A stretch of 20,631 nucleotides of DNA, from positions 1 through 20,631 of the IMG/VR virus record IMGVR_UViG_3300026367_000024. One strand, written 5' to 3'. The notes beneath the pieces were generated by a model. That model had not been told where the DNA came from. It did no database searches and saw only the letters and a program-made list of their open reading frames with translations. Both the position numbers and the translations under genes were made by a program. The stretch is from a virus. Every line of letters begins with the position of its first letter. Position 1 is the first letter of the stretch. Positions 14,350 to 17,946 of the stretch are shown piece after piece.

Positions 14350-14359
14350 CGTCAATTCC
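14347..14359 (-). promoter_or_regulatory. Start-site motif, portal copy
   Basis: It reads GGAATTGACGATG on the minus strand. The TGA in its middle is the stop codon of the terminase gene, so stop, ribosome site and start are combined. Confidence 0.7.
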
Positions 14360-17321
14360 GGCTGTGTCGTCTGATTTGCTTATCTTTTTGAGGGGTCTCC
14401 GAGTGGAAACCGATAAGGTCATTAGGCGCGAACATGTTGAAATCTTGGGACAACGCAATCATCCCTAGTTGTACATGTTCAAAATCTTTAGAACCTTCTA
14501 ACACACCGTTATAGACCATACCAGAGGCCATAAATGCGAGGGCATGAAAAAAGTGGTCGTTGTTATTTAACTTAACCCACTTAGCTGCGCCCTCATGTTC
14601 CTCTTCTCGGACCATGTCCGTAAGGTGCAGGACAACATTTGCTTTTTCCATCCCATATCCAGACAAGCTCCATGTCCCTTTGCGGATACCACCGAACACA
14701 TAGTCCAGCATCATTGTTCGTGATACTTGGATGTGGCTGATATTACCTAGGGCGTCTTTCTGTGGGGCTATTTCTCGGTTGTTACCATACTCAACAGGGA
14801 CAATTGCCCCGTTGCTTTTATCCCTAACATCATTAGATAACGGAGTGTAGGGGTATCTATCGAGGGCCCCTTGGATGTTGTAGCTTTCACTCAACCTAGC
14901 AATGGTGCCAAGCAGCTCGTCTTCTCTGCAGCTTGTCATTAGGATGACCGATACCTCAGCAATAGACGATCCCACACCAATAACGATGTGACAGGTCAAG
15001 CCCATATCGATACCAATCCAGTGTTTGTCATTCTTATCAGGCGTCGGGGGGACTTCGGTTCGCATACACCGGGTCACTTGCTCTTCAGATAACTTAATAT
15101 TCTCAGATGTATGGACGTCGCCCAGAACAGTATTCTTAAACCCCTTGATATTATCCCGGGCCTTGTATTTGAATAACGAAGACAGGATGTAGGAGGGAAG
15201 GAGGCGGTTAGTACTAAACGGCCTGACTCGGTACCCTCTCGAGTGAAGCCTACTTGGGAACCGAGGTACCCACTCTCGACGGGAGGTATCGCCAAGGTCA
15301 ATAGGTTTACGGCACTTCTCACAGCACACATACGTGGTGGAGAGGTCGATAACTCCATCATCCAACAGTTTACCGTCGATCATGCTGTAGTCTTCGTAGA
15401 CCTCAGGTAATCCGGGGATAACCACATGCTTGGGGGTAAAGTGGGGGATGTTATGATGGTTGCAGCCAGTGCACTTAAACATGTACTCCATCTGGTCACT
15501 TGACGCATAGGAACGGTGAATACCCACACCCTCATAGGTTGGGGTACTGAATTGCTGGCGTATCCGTAAATCAGAACCCTGCAAACGAGAATCAAACAAC
15601 GCCAACATATCTTTAGGCGTCAAATCCACTTCATCGTTAAACACAATGTCAGCATCGATAGAGGTTGCATCGCCCTCGCTGGCCCCGGTGATGTACATGA
15701 AGTTGGTGCCGATCTTTATCAAGCCCATACTCTGACGCTCAGGGGACGCGAACGCTTTATCAAACTGCACGATAGGCAGGATACGCGCCTGAGAAATACG
15801 CTTAAACATCTTCTCGTTTGGCATCGTGTAGATGAGTGAGATACCATCCATTCTCGATAGAATAGTCAATGACTTACGTATTTGAATCTCAGTATTGTGG
15901 GTGGGGATCATACCTTTGCCACAAAGGTAAAGGTGGGACTCAGAATCAACCGTAATACAACGGGTAGGGACTGACCCCACTTTTTCAACCTTCACCACTC
16001 GTCTTCTCAAAGACTCAGTTGGTCTGCCCTCAGATAAGAGGGGTTGCCTTTCAAGCTTACGAAGTAATCTGAAGACCGGGAGGTTGGTGTAAGCCACAAA
16101 AGAGACTTCTGCAACAGGTTTTTTACCTTGGATAACATGCCCACTCTTCAAGACCCCCCCGCTGGGCGGCCTCCAACGAACTCTAGGTTTTAACCCCAAA
16201 CTGGCGACAAGCTCTTGCACTTGAGCAACTAGCTTTTCACTGGTGTTGTAAAAAGAACACCGCCCTTTTTTGGTAATGCTGCCGTCTGTGTCCATTAACC
16301 CTTGTAACAGGTTAAGTCTTTGAGACACCGAAGCTCGCAAATACTGATTAGGGATATGTTTTTCTTTTCCAATTACGCCCAAGGAGGTGAGCCGGGAGTA
16401 GAGGGTGTCATAGGGAACGGATTCTTCCCTGAATTCTTTGCCAAGGTTTTGGTCTCGGCACTTTTTGCACGTTCCCCAAGGCGCTAGGGTTCCCTCTGTA
16501 GACTTACTGTGCCCTCGAGGGCATAGGTCTGTATCTCGGGGAAGAGTGACGTTGTATTGGAGGGTATTATCTCTCTTGGCTACCAATCGATAGACGTAAC
16601 CAGAGGATTTTATCTGAGTTTCAAAAGCGTCAGCGTCCGACTTAGACACGGTAAACGTGCTGGAATGGGTGTGTCCGTCCCCAAGCCAGTACCCTAAAAC
16701 ATACGGGTCTACCTCAAGGTCTTGAATGGGTGTGTGTAAGGGTTGGGTGTTAGGAATGGCGAAAAGGTTGCGCCCCTTATCATGGTAAATATCTGCCAAC
16801 ACGGAGGTTTTTAAAACCCCTTTTCTAGCATACCCTTTGGCGGGTGTGCCTGTTTTACCATACAACCCGGCCTCACCAAACGCTTTATGGGCTTCAAAAT
16901 ACCACCGATGGTTGGCATCGGAGGTAATGGTTTCCCCCGTATCAAAGGTCAGGGTATAACAATCGTGACCCCGATAGACAGGGGAGATGTAGGTCACGTT
17001 GCAAGGTTTCCCTTGCTCATCAAAGACCACATCCCCCACTTTAAGGTCTCCCATACTCTTCCACCCCAGCAAAGTGGGGATAGGTGTATCCAAGGCTAGG
17101 GCCAGACCAACCTGTGAGGGCTTCATGCAACACAGGTTATCGTGCATATCGTTGGCAATAGCTTCTTGAAATGGGTACCTGTCGAAGGAGAAATTTTTCT
17201 TATTTAGCGACGTGTTCTGACACATCCACTGCCCATGAGTCATGGTGCTGGTGTCGCGGTTGTAGCGTTTTGTTATGGATTTGGCAAATGACAAGCCATA
17301 CGGATTACTCGCGTGAATCAT
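14352..17321 (-). CDS. terL: Large terminase subunit (GpA-like) interrupted by an intein
   Basis: This encodes a 989-aa precursor; splicing out residues 74-476 gives a 586-aa terminase, a normal length for the GpA-like family. The joined extein would read MKPSQVGL-TEIQIRKSL, an intact terminase P-loop. Walker B is DIVFNDEVD (D563, E564). Zinc-type Cys pairs occur at C617/C620 and C666-C670. The nuclease (RNase H-like) acidic residues are probably D772 in WIGIDMG, D821 in GALDRYP and D922 in NDHFFHAL. It drives ATP-dependent packaging and cuts concatemers together with a small subunit and the portal. The ATG at 17321 lacks a Shine-Dalgarno and is preceded by the divergent 25-bp repeat arm instead. 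The stop lies inside the portal start motif. Confidence 0.93.
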   Translation of the reverse strand: MIHASNPYGLSFAKSITKRYNRDTSTMTHGQWMCQNTSLNKKNFSFDRYPFQEAIANDMHDNLCCMKPSQVGLALALDTPIPTLLGWKSMGDLKVGDVVFDEQGKPCNVTYISPVYRGHDCYTLTFDTGETITSDANHRWYFEAHKAFGEAGLYGKTGTPAKGYARKGVLKTSVLADIYHDKGRNLFAIPNTQPLHTPIQDLEVDPYVLGYWLGDGHTHSSTFTVSKSDADAFETQIKSSGYVYRLVAKRDNTLQYNVTLPRDTDLCPRGHSKSTEGTLAPWGTCKKCRDQNLGKEFREESVPYDTLYSRLTSLGVIGKEKHIPNQYLRASVSQRLNLLQGLMDTDGSITKKGRCSFYNTSEKLVAQVQELVASLGLKPRVRWRPPSGGVLKSGHVIQGKKPVAEVSFVAYTNLPVFRLLRKLERQPLLSEGRPTESLRRRVVKVEKVGSVPTRCITVDSESHLYLCGKGMIPTHNTEIQIRKSLTILSRMDGISLIYTMPNEKMFKRISQARILPIVQFDKAFASPERQSMGLIKIGTNFMYITGASEGDATSIDADIVFNDEVDLTPKDMLALFDSRLQGSDLRIRQQFSTPTYEGVGIHRSYASSDQMEYMFKCTGCNHHNIPHFTPKHVVIPGLPEVYEDYSMIDGKLLDDGVIDLSTTYVCCEKCRKPIDLGDTSRREWVPRFPSRLHSRGYRVRPFSTNRLLPSYILSSLFKYKARDNIKGFKNTVLGDVHTSENIKLSEEQVTRCMRTEVPPTPDKNDKHWIGIDMGLTCHIVIGVGSSIAEVSVILMTSCREDELLGTIARLSESYNIQGALDRYPYTPLSNDVRDKSNGAIVPVEYGNNREIAPQKDALGNISHIQVSRTMMLDYVFGGIRKGTWSLSGYGMEKANVVLHLTDMVREEEHEGAAKWVKLNNNDHFFHALAFMASGMVYNGVLEGSKDFEHVQLGMIALSQDFNMFAPNDLIGFHSETPQKDKQIRRHSRN
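15894..17102 (-). mobile_element. Class 3-type intein with LAGLIDADG homing endonuclease in terL
   Basis: The intein spans precursor residues 74-476 (403 aa). It starts ALALDTPIPTLLGWKSM and ends MIPTHN before Thr477. The first residue is Ala, not Cys or Ser. W140 two residues after the block B His138, C455 in block F (TRCITVDSESHLYL) and T474 in block G match the W/C/T triplet of class 3 inteins, in which the block F Cys makes the first attack. The inserted endonuclease has LAGLIDADG motifs VLGYWLGDG (208-216, D215) and LQGLMDTDG (339-347, D346). Between them sits a CxxxH...CxxC zinc-type element (C267, H271, C285, C288). All residues look intact, so splicing and homing may both be active. 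It lies exactly in the P-loop. Confidence 0.88.
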
Positions 17322-17325
17322 ATAC

Positions 17326-17350
17326 TATCGTCAATTTCAATTTGTGGCGC
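17326..17350 (-). repeat. 25-bp inverted-repeat arm, terL side
   Basis: The + strand reads TATCGTCAATTTCAA then TTTGTGGCGC. It matches the reverse complement of 17431-17455 at 23 of 25 positions. The core ATTGACGATA equals the start-site motif core. The terL ATG lies 5 nt beyond its inner-most conserved base pair side. Confidence 0.8.
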
Positions 17351-17388
17351 GACCATACCTGACATTTTACTTTTTATGAATACTAAAC

Positions 17389-17417
17389 TTGAAGATTTAG
17401 GTGTGGGGAGCTTTTAT
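17389..17417 (+). promoter_or_regulatory. Possible rightward promoter
   Basis: TTGAAG (17389-17394) and TTTTAT (17412-17417) are 17 nt apart. Transcription would start near 17424, leaving the downstream repeat arm in the leader of the rightward mRNA. TATCAT at 17422-17427 is an alternative -10. Confidence 0.35.
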
Positions 17418-17430
17418 CGGGTATCATGTG

Positions 17431-17455
17431 GCACCACAATTTGAAATTGACGATA
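17431..17455 (+). repeat. 25-bp inverted-repeat arm, rightward-operon side
   Basis: It reads GCACCACAAT then TTGAAATTGACGATA and ends 2 nt before the ATG at 17458. It is the mirror partner of 17326-17350. The CACAA...TTGAA extension is absent from the other motif copies, so the conserved unit here is larger than the ribosome-site motif. Confidence 0.8.
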
Positions 17456-17457
17456 TT

Positions 17458-17946
17458 ATGAGTAGCCCAAAACCCTATTACCCAGAGCTAACCCCAGACG
17501 TAAAGAAGTTTCTCACCCTCGTGCCCAAGCTCATGCAGACACACGCTGATTATCTGACCCACCCTGAGTGCCCGTATGAAGAAGAGGTCGTGTTACTGCA
17601 GCGATTATTTGCCCCACAGAACCAAGAACTCAACCCCAAAAATATCGAGTTCTACCTAAACAAAGATATTGATATCGCAGAAGAGTCCCAAGCCCTGTAC
17701 TGGGAGATTAAGACGGTCAAAGCCAACATGGGCACCGACGAAACCTCCGAAAAAGTAGCCGTATTCCGCTTGATGACCACCTTGCTTGAGAAGATCCTGA
17801 CCCTAAAAGAAAAAGCCGAGGGGTTAGAGCACTTTGAGCAGTTCAAAACAATGATCATTAACACCTTAGACAGGTACTTAGACTCCCAACAGAAGTCAGA
17901 TTTCTGCCAGCAGATGGATGACATGTTTGGGCCCACGAAGGAGTAA
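17458..17946 (+). CDS. Small phage protein, candidate small terminase subunit
   Basis: This 162-aa acidic protein starts MSSPKPYYPELTPDVKKFLT. It has an N-terminal segment with PECPYEEEVVLLQRLFAP and a long helical C-terminal half (YWEIKTVKANMG, then FRLMTTLLEKILTLKEKAEG). A helical oligomerisation region with Leu/Glu/Lys spacing of this kind occurs in some small terminase subunits and packaging-associated proteins. The assignment is weak and also rests on lying next to, though divergent from, terL. No helix-turn-helix is obvious. The start at ATG 17458 directly follows the 25-bp repeat; the frame is open back to 17401 but that part contains the repeat. Its 3' end contains the AAGGAG ribosome site of the next gene. 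It could equally be an early replication accessory protein. Confidence 0.6.
   Translation: MSSPKPYYPELTPDVKKFLTLVPKLMQTHADYLTHPECPYEEEVVLLQRLFAPQNQELNPKNIEFYLNKDIDIAEESQALYWEIKTVKANMGTDETSEKVAVFRLMTTLLEKILTLKEKAEGLEHFEQFKTMIINTLDRYLDSQQKSDFCQQMDDMFGPTKE

Follow-up and report, generated by a model that had tools for sequence, protein, structure and literature searches.

The complete IMG/VR virus record of 20,631 bases, referred to here as the window, carries on its minus strand a terL gene (14352..17321) whose frame is open throughout and which encodes a precursor of 989 amino acids. The product is a gpA-type terminase large subunit (TerL) which is interrupted by an in-frame intein. TerL was identified through its match to PHROG 675 (phrog_675, E=3e-92; C-extein stretch 477-941) and through the GpA ATPase domain, which was detected on the C-extein with E=5e-10 (PF05876, GpA_ATPase) and on the intein-free TerL relatives with E=2e-13 to 1e-18. 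The N-extein (residues 1-73; 17103..17321) ends in the first part of the Walker A motif, K67-P-S-Q-V-G-L73 (17103-17123), and is followed by an intein of 403 residues (precursor residues 74-476; 15894..17102) and by the C-extein (residues 477-989; 14352..15893, stop codon included), which holds the remaining ATPase and the nuclease and is about 52% identical to the intein-free TerL of Pseudoalteromonas phage KB12-38; all these features lie on the minus strand. A second IMG/VR contig is identical to the window across the 8059 bases compared, and the virus was thus sampled as one genotype, from two contigs which are identical where compared.

The two splice junctions were fixed with the help of homologues having an empty site, because these read straight across the point of insertion. 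The intein-free TerLs of phage KB12-38, Achromobacter phage JWF and Xylophilus phage Lumi (39-53% identity to the TerL of the window) are uninterrupted there, and 12 intein-free IMG/VR contigs, some of which are near-copies of one another, have an unbroken SQ[VI]G[LM] followed by TE or SE. In the intein-free relatives KPSQVGL^TEIQIRK is continuous, and the insert therefore falls between the Walker A loop and the Thr/Ser belonging to it, at motif positions 7 and 8 (K-P-S-Q-V-G-L^T-E). We take KPSQVGLTE to be the counterpart of the Walker A motif of lambda gpA; a lambda-like relative (L079) reads KSARVGY^TK. The limits of 15894-17102 which had been proposed for the intein in an earlier note on this DNA proved to be exact, and the residues named there are all in place, these being in precursor numbering A74, W140, C455, T474, H475-N476 and T477 (A1, W67, C382, T401, H402, N403 and T+1 of the intein). 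A chance motif or a wrong reading frame is ruled out by the empty-site homologues.

The residues of the splicing domain were compared among 51 aligned viral sequences and among 85 related viral loci. Position 1 (17100..17102) is Ala and has no Ser, Cys or Thr nucleophile; it is Ala in 47/51 of the aligned relatives, with three gaps and one Ser. The WCT triplet is complete and consists of Trp67 (block B:12; 16902..16904), Cys382 (block F:4; 15957..15959), which is the predicted initiating nucleophile, and Thr401 (block G:5; 15900..15902), all in columns shared with the solved structures 6bs8 and 6rix. These three residues are invariant in the 51 sequences, and so are His65 of block B (16908..16910), comparable to the catalytic triad His65 of MchDnaB1 (PMC7664689), and His402-Asn403 (15894..15899), the penultimate His and terminal Asn for C-terminal cleavage. 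The H-x-W of block B, the block F Cys and the terminal THN are kept in 85/85 loci, where the counts of T, H and N (not those of W and C) are partly selected because the loci were gathered by the patterns T-[PV]-I-x-T-x-x-G-W or G-x-x-M-x-x-T-H-N, which include them. The residue at +1 is Thr477 (15891..15893), which would serve both as the second branch nucleophile and as the Walker A Thr of mature TerL, and this position is Ser or Thr in the intein-free TerLs.

The best sequence matches in the PDB are 6rix, 6bs8 and 6riy, all of them class 3 DnaB inteins from mycobacteria (M. chimaera and M. smegmatis), with E-values of 3e-23 to 6e-24 which, together with the conservation of W, C, T, H and N in the 85 loci, argue against chance resemblance. 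A tree of class 1, 2 and 3 inteins, as proposed in the earlier note, was built from the splicing domains by maximum likelihood; in it the window and 17 viral relatives group with MsmDnaB1 and MchDnaB1 (support 100/99), and KlbA (class 2) and seven class 1 inteins remain outside. The grouping with KlbA which the note had named as refuting its claim was thus looked for and did not appear. Other than Sce VMA and Npu DnaE, the class 1 and 2 sequences of this tree were checked against the PDB in all but their first and last residues; branch support within the class 3 group is low, and the positions of individual class 1 rows are unsure owing to long branches, which leaves the class 3 split unaffected. 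The AlphaFold model of the intein has a pLDDT of 95.2 and a pTM of 0.92, and its splicing part superposes on 6riy, 6rix and 6bs8 over 127-130 residues at 1.4-1.8 A with 40-43% identity (6riy: 130 residues, 1.5 A, 40%; 6bs8: 127 residues, 1.4 A), while the nearest natural class 1 structure, gp41-1, has 24% identity at 1.7 A. The HINT fold is thus present with class 3 structures as the closest, a fold which by itself does not distinguish the classes.

The intein of the window thus belongs to class 3 by its signature, by the tree, by its modelled fold and by the solved structures closest to it, as had been claimed earlier; the definition of the class was drawn from later papers, including PMC5222942 and PMC7664689. 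Ala is also the first residue of KlbA, and by a class 2 (KlbA-type) reading the +1 residue would attack the N-terminal junction directly, which we consider hardly credible here since the intein has the full WCT set which KlbA lacks, KlbA stands outside the class 3 group (100/99) and the closest structures are of class 3. The class 2 reading was rejected on the WCT set and the tree.

Between the splicing blocks lies a LAGLIDADG homing endonuclease domain with approximate limits 16008..16865 on the minus strand (PF14528, E=1e-9). It has two LAGLIDADG motifs with their Asp, LGYWLGDG (16674..16697) and LLQGLMDTDG (16281..16310), as well as Lys248 of block D (16359..16361; 50/51 sequences), and the model of the whole intein resembles PI-SceI with Z 28.6 over 348 residues. 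By these features the endonuclease is apparently intact. A zinc-knuckle-like module, CPRGH-x(13)-CKKC (16458..16523), is situated within the endonuclease, and a similar motif is found in 34/85 related inteins. Many class 3 terminase inteins have this CxRGH-x(n)-CxxC module between their two LAGLIDADG motifs, and others lack it; the module had no match in Pfam, even at E 10, and it is possibly a swappable add-on for DNA binding.

The intein is absent from most relatives of the TerL of the window. In the extein tree the four intein-bearing TerLs, that of the window and those of loci L033, L034 and L037, are each placed among empty relatives (support of 98/95 around the window) and need 4 changes, the maximum possible, a count which is inexact as the other intein-bearing placements are moderately supported. 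The inteins of the window, L033 and L034 are mutually nearest in the splicing-domain tree, and between L033 and the window the inteins are 55% identical as against 40% for the exteins. These results are most simply read as repeated homing into one site, and we regard the intein as a probable homing element because its endonuclease is apparently intact and its distribution is patchy at one site. The LAGLIDADG domain would cut terL alleles which lack the intein, at the codons of the P-loop, and repair would then copy the intein in.

It is accordingly very probable that the TerL of this tailed phage carries, within its gpA-type Walker A motif (KPSQVGL^TE), a class 3 intein which is full-length and mobile. 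Splicing by the class 3 pathway is predicted from homology with high confidence, and the steps proposed here follow published accounts (PMC5222942, PMC7664689). Cys382, aided by His65, Trp67 and Thr401, would attack the Leu73-Ala1 bond to give a first branched thioester, and the N-extein would pass to Thr+1 to form a second branch. Thereafter Asn403, aided by His402, would cyclise and release the intein, and an O-N shift would re-form the peptide bond so that KPSQVGLTE is rebuilt. The unspliced TerL should lack a working P-loop because the insertion splits Walker A, and from this split we infer, in line with what the earlier note had held, that the packaging ATPase depends on splicing; activity of the endonuclease is likewise inferred.

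A degenerate intein which no longer splices and leaves a dead terminase has a published parallel in the Arthrobacter Arth_1007 intein, described in the title of PMC3196547 as a class 3-related pseudogene. Such decay is very improbable for the window, where the frame of 989 residues is open, the splicing residues and both LAGLIDADG Asp are intact, the AlphaFold model is confident and terL is the sole large-terminase gene found.

It had also been suggested that splicing acts as a timing switch for packaging. A regulatory intein of this kind would splice conditionally, for example under redox control, and would thereby time the start of packaging: oxidation would join Cys48 to Cys382 and block splicing, and the packaging ATPase would be held back until reducing conditions return inside the cell. 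The insertion site in the P-loop suits such a role, and the intein has both Cys48 (16959..16961, minus strand; Cys in 49/51 relatives) and the F:4 Cys, whose counterparts form the Cys48-Cys118 disulfide in M. smegmatis DnaBi1 (PMC6195587). All tested changes of Cys48 in DnaBi1 abolished splicing (PMC6195587), and the conservation of this residue is therefore no evidence of a switch, because DnaBi1 needs Cys48 for splicing itself. Moreover, most relatives of the TerL lack the intein, and the five mycobacteriophage TerL inteins tested, including the class 3 TerL1-c and TerL1-e, are stated in PMC5050341 to have "spliced quickly". Both a regulatory role in general and the Cys48-Cys382 form of it are thus unlikely in our estimate, and nothing in the sequence argues for the timing switch; if true, a redox switch would make phage DNA packaging dependent on the redox state of the host.

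Repeated elements were also observed around gene starts elsewhere in the window. The element GGAA(A)TTGACGATG leads into the start of six minus-strand genes (4993, 5663, 6557, 11244, 12872 and 14355) and takes in their ATG, with 6 copies of TTGACGATG observed in the window against 0.16 expected, and two further copies occur in L020/L022. It resembles a ribosome-binding or regulatory element which these genes share, and because it runs into the ATG, the TTG starts listed for the six ORFs are probably false, the true start being the ATG which follows six bases later. An inverted repeat of 32 nt (88%; 17322-17353 and 17428-17459) with the common core GAAATTGACGAT lies directly before both divergent genes, terL and a plus-strand gene whose start is probably the ATG near 17459 and not the GTG at 17401. 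Another short repeated element, GGACAGGTT, was found 12 times in 13.7 kb of phage KB12-38 (L013), a relative of the phage of the window.

A scan of IMG/VR with the alignment of the intein relatives gave at least 577 related loci, so the rarity which the earlier note had ascribed to class 3 inteins is not borne out, and for viruses it is ruled out by IMG/VR alone. The nearest related loci lie mostly in terminase P-loops and most contexts are P-loop-like; among the C-exteins of 74 near loci, 39 matched GpA_ATPase, 22 TerL_nuclease, 21 TerL_ATPase, 6 Terminase_6N and 2 a P22-type portal, in a sample which, being picked for its resemblance to the window, is no fair census. Several PHROG terminase profiles match inside the intein of the window; public phage sets hence already contain intein-bearing terminases of this sort, and the present one is not a first. 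Some related loci vary in position 1 or in host protein. A related intein in L089 (861-2057) has Cys at position 1 along with a complete WCT set and, judging from these residues, could splice by either route; in L005 (533-1561) and L107 (2501-3508) class 3-type inteins were found with Pro at position 1, and their host proteins appear to be P22-type portals, not terminases.

The locus is a further case of a full-length class 3 intein, here with well-defined limits and in a gpA-type Walker A motif, and the exteins of its empty-site relatives are about 50% identical. By the wider survey, such inteins are common, not rare, in the P-loops of several families of phage terminases, and their abundance in phage terminases fits the published idea of phages as a reservoir of the class. 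Related inteins found repeatedly at one site can serve in homing studies and as a source of new class 3 splicing tools.

Among viral relatives, L033 (3300028800_000354), L034 (3300037882_004208) and L037 (3300014957_000016) share with the window the insertion point (SQ[VI]G[LM]^TE) and the host family, with intein identities of 55%, 49% and 40%; the L037 intein differs from Ala1 of the window in having Ser at position 1, and those of L034 and L037 lack the CxxGH-CxxC module. The DnaB inteins of M. smegmatis (DnaBi1) and M. chimaera (DnaB1; 6bs8, 6rix, 6riy) resemble that of the window in Ala1, the WCT set, sequence (40-43% identity) and structure (1.4-1.8 A), in their P-loop insertion and in using a P-loop hydroxyl residue as +1, as shown for DnaBi1, whereas they are mini-inteins without an endonuclease, reside in a bacterial helicase and have Ser at +1. 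The two-domain architecture is common to the window intein and PI-SceI (the Sce VMA intein), which is of class 1 with Cys1 and not of class 3 with Ala1. The WCT-type inteins of Vibrio phage 489E54-1 (OX241561) and Stenotrophomonas phage SOVA965 (PP079418) lie in the TerL P-loop (GK^T / GK^S), but in terminases of the TerL_ATPase family (PF03354) in place of GpA. The accessible part of Kelley et al. (2016; PMC5050341) describes the mycobacteriophage inteins TerL1-a to TerL1-e, which are inserted in the TerL ATPase as in the window, site a lying between Lys and Thr of the P-loop; there c, d and e are given as class 3, a label which the P-loop sites a and b do not receive, the hosts are of the Terminase_1 type as against the gpA type of the window, and the intein-bearing terminase families exclude the gpA family. 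Phage TerL and, with DnaB, the P-loop are thus both published locations of class 3 inteins, and the window is a further example.
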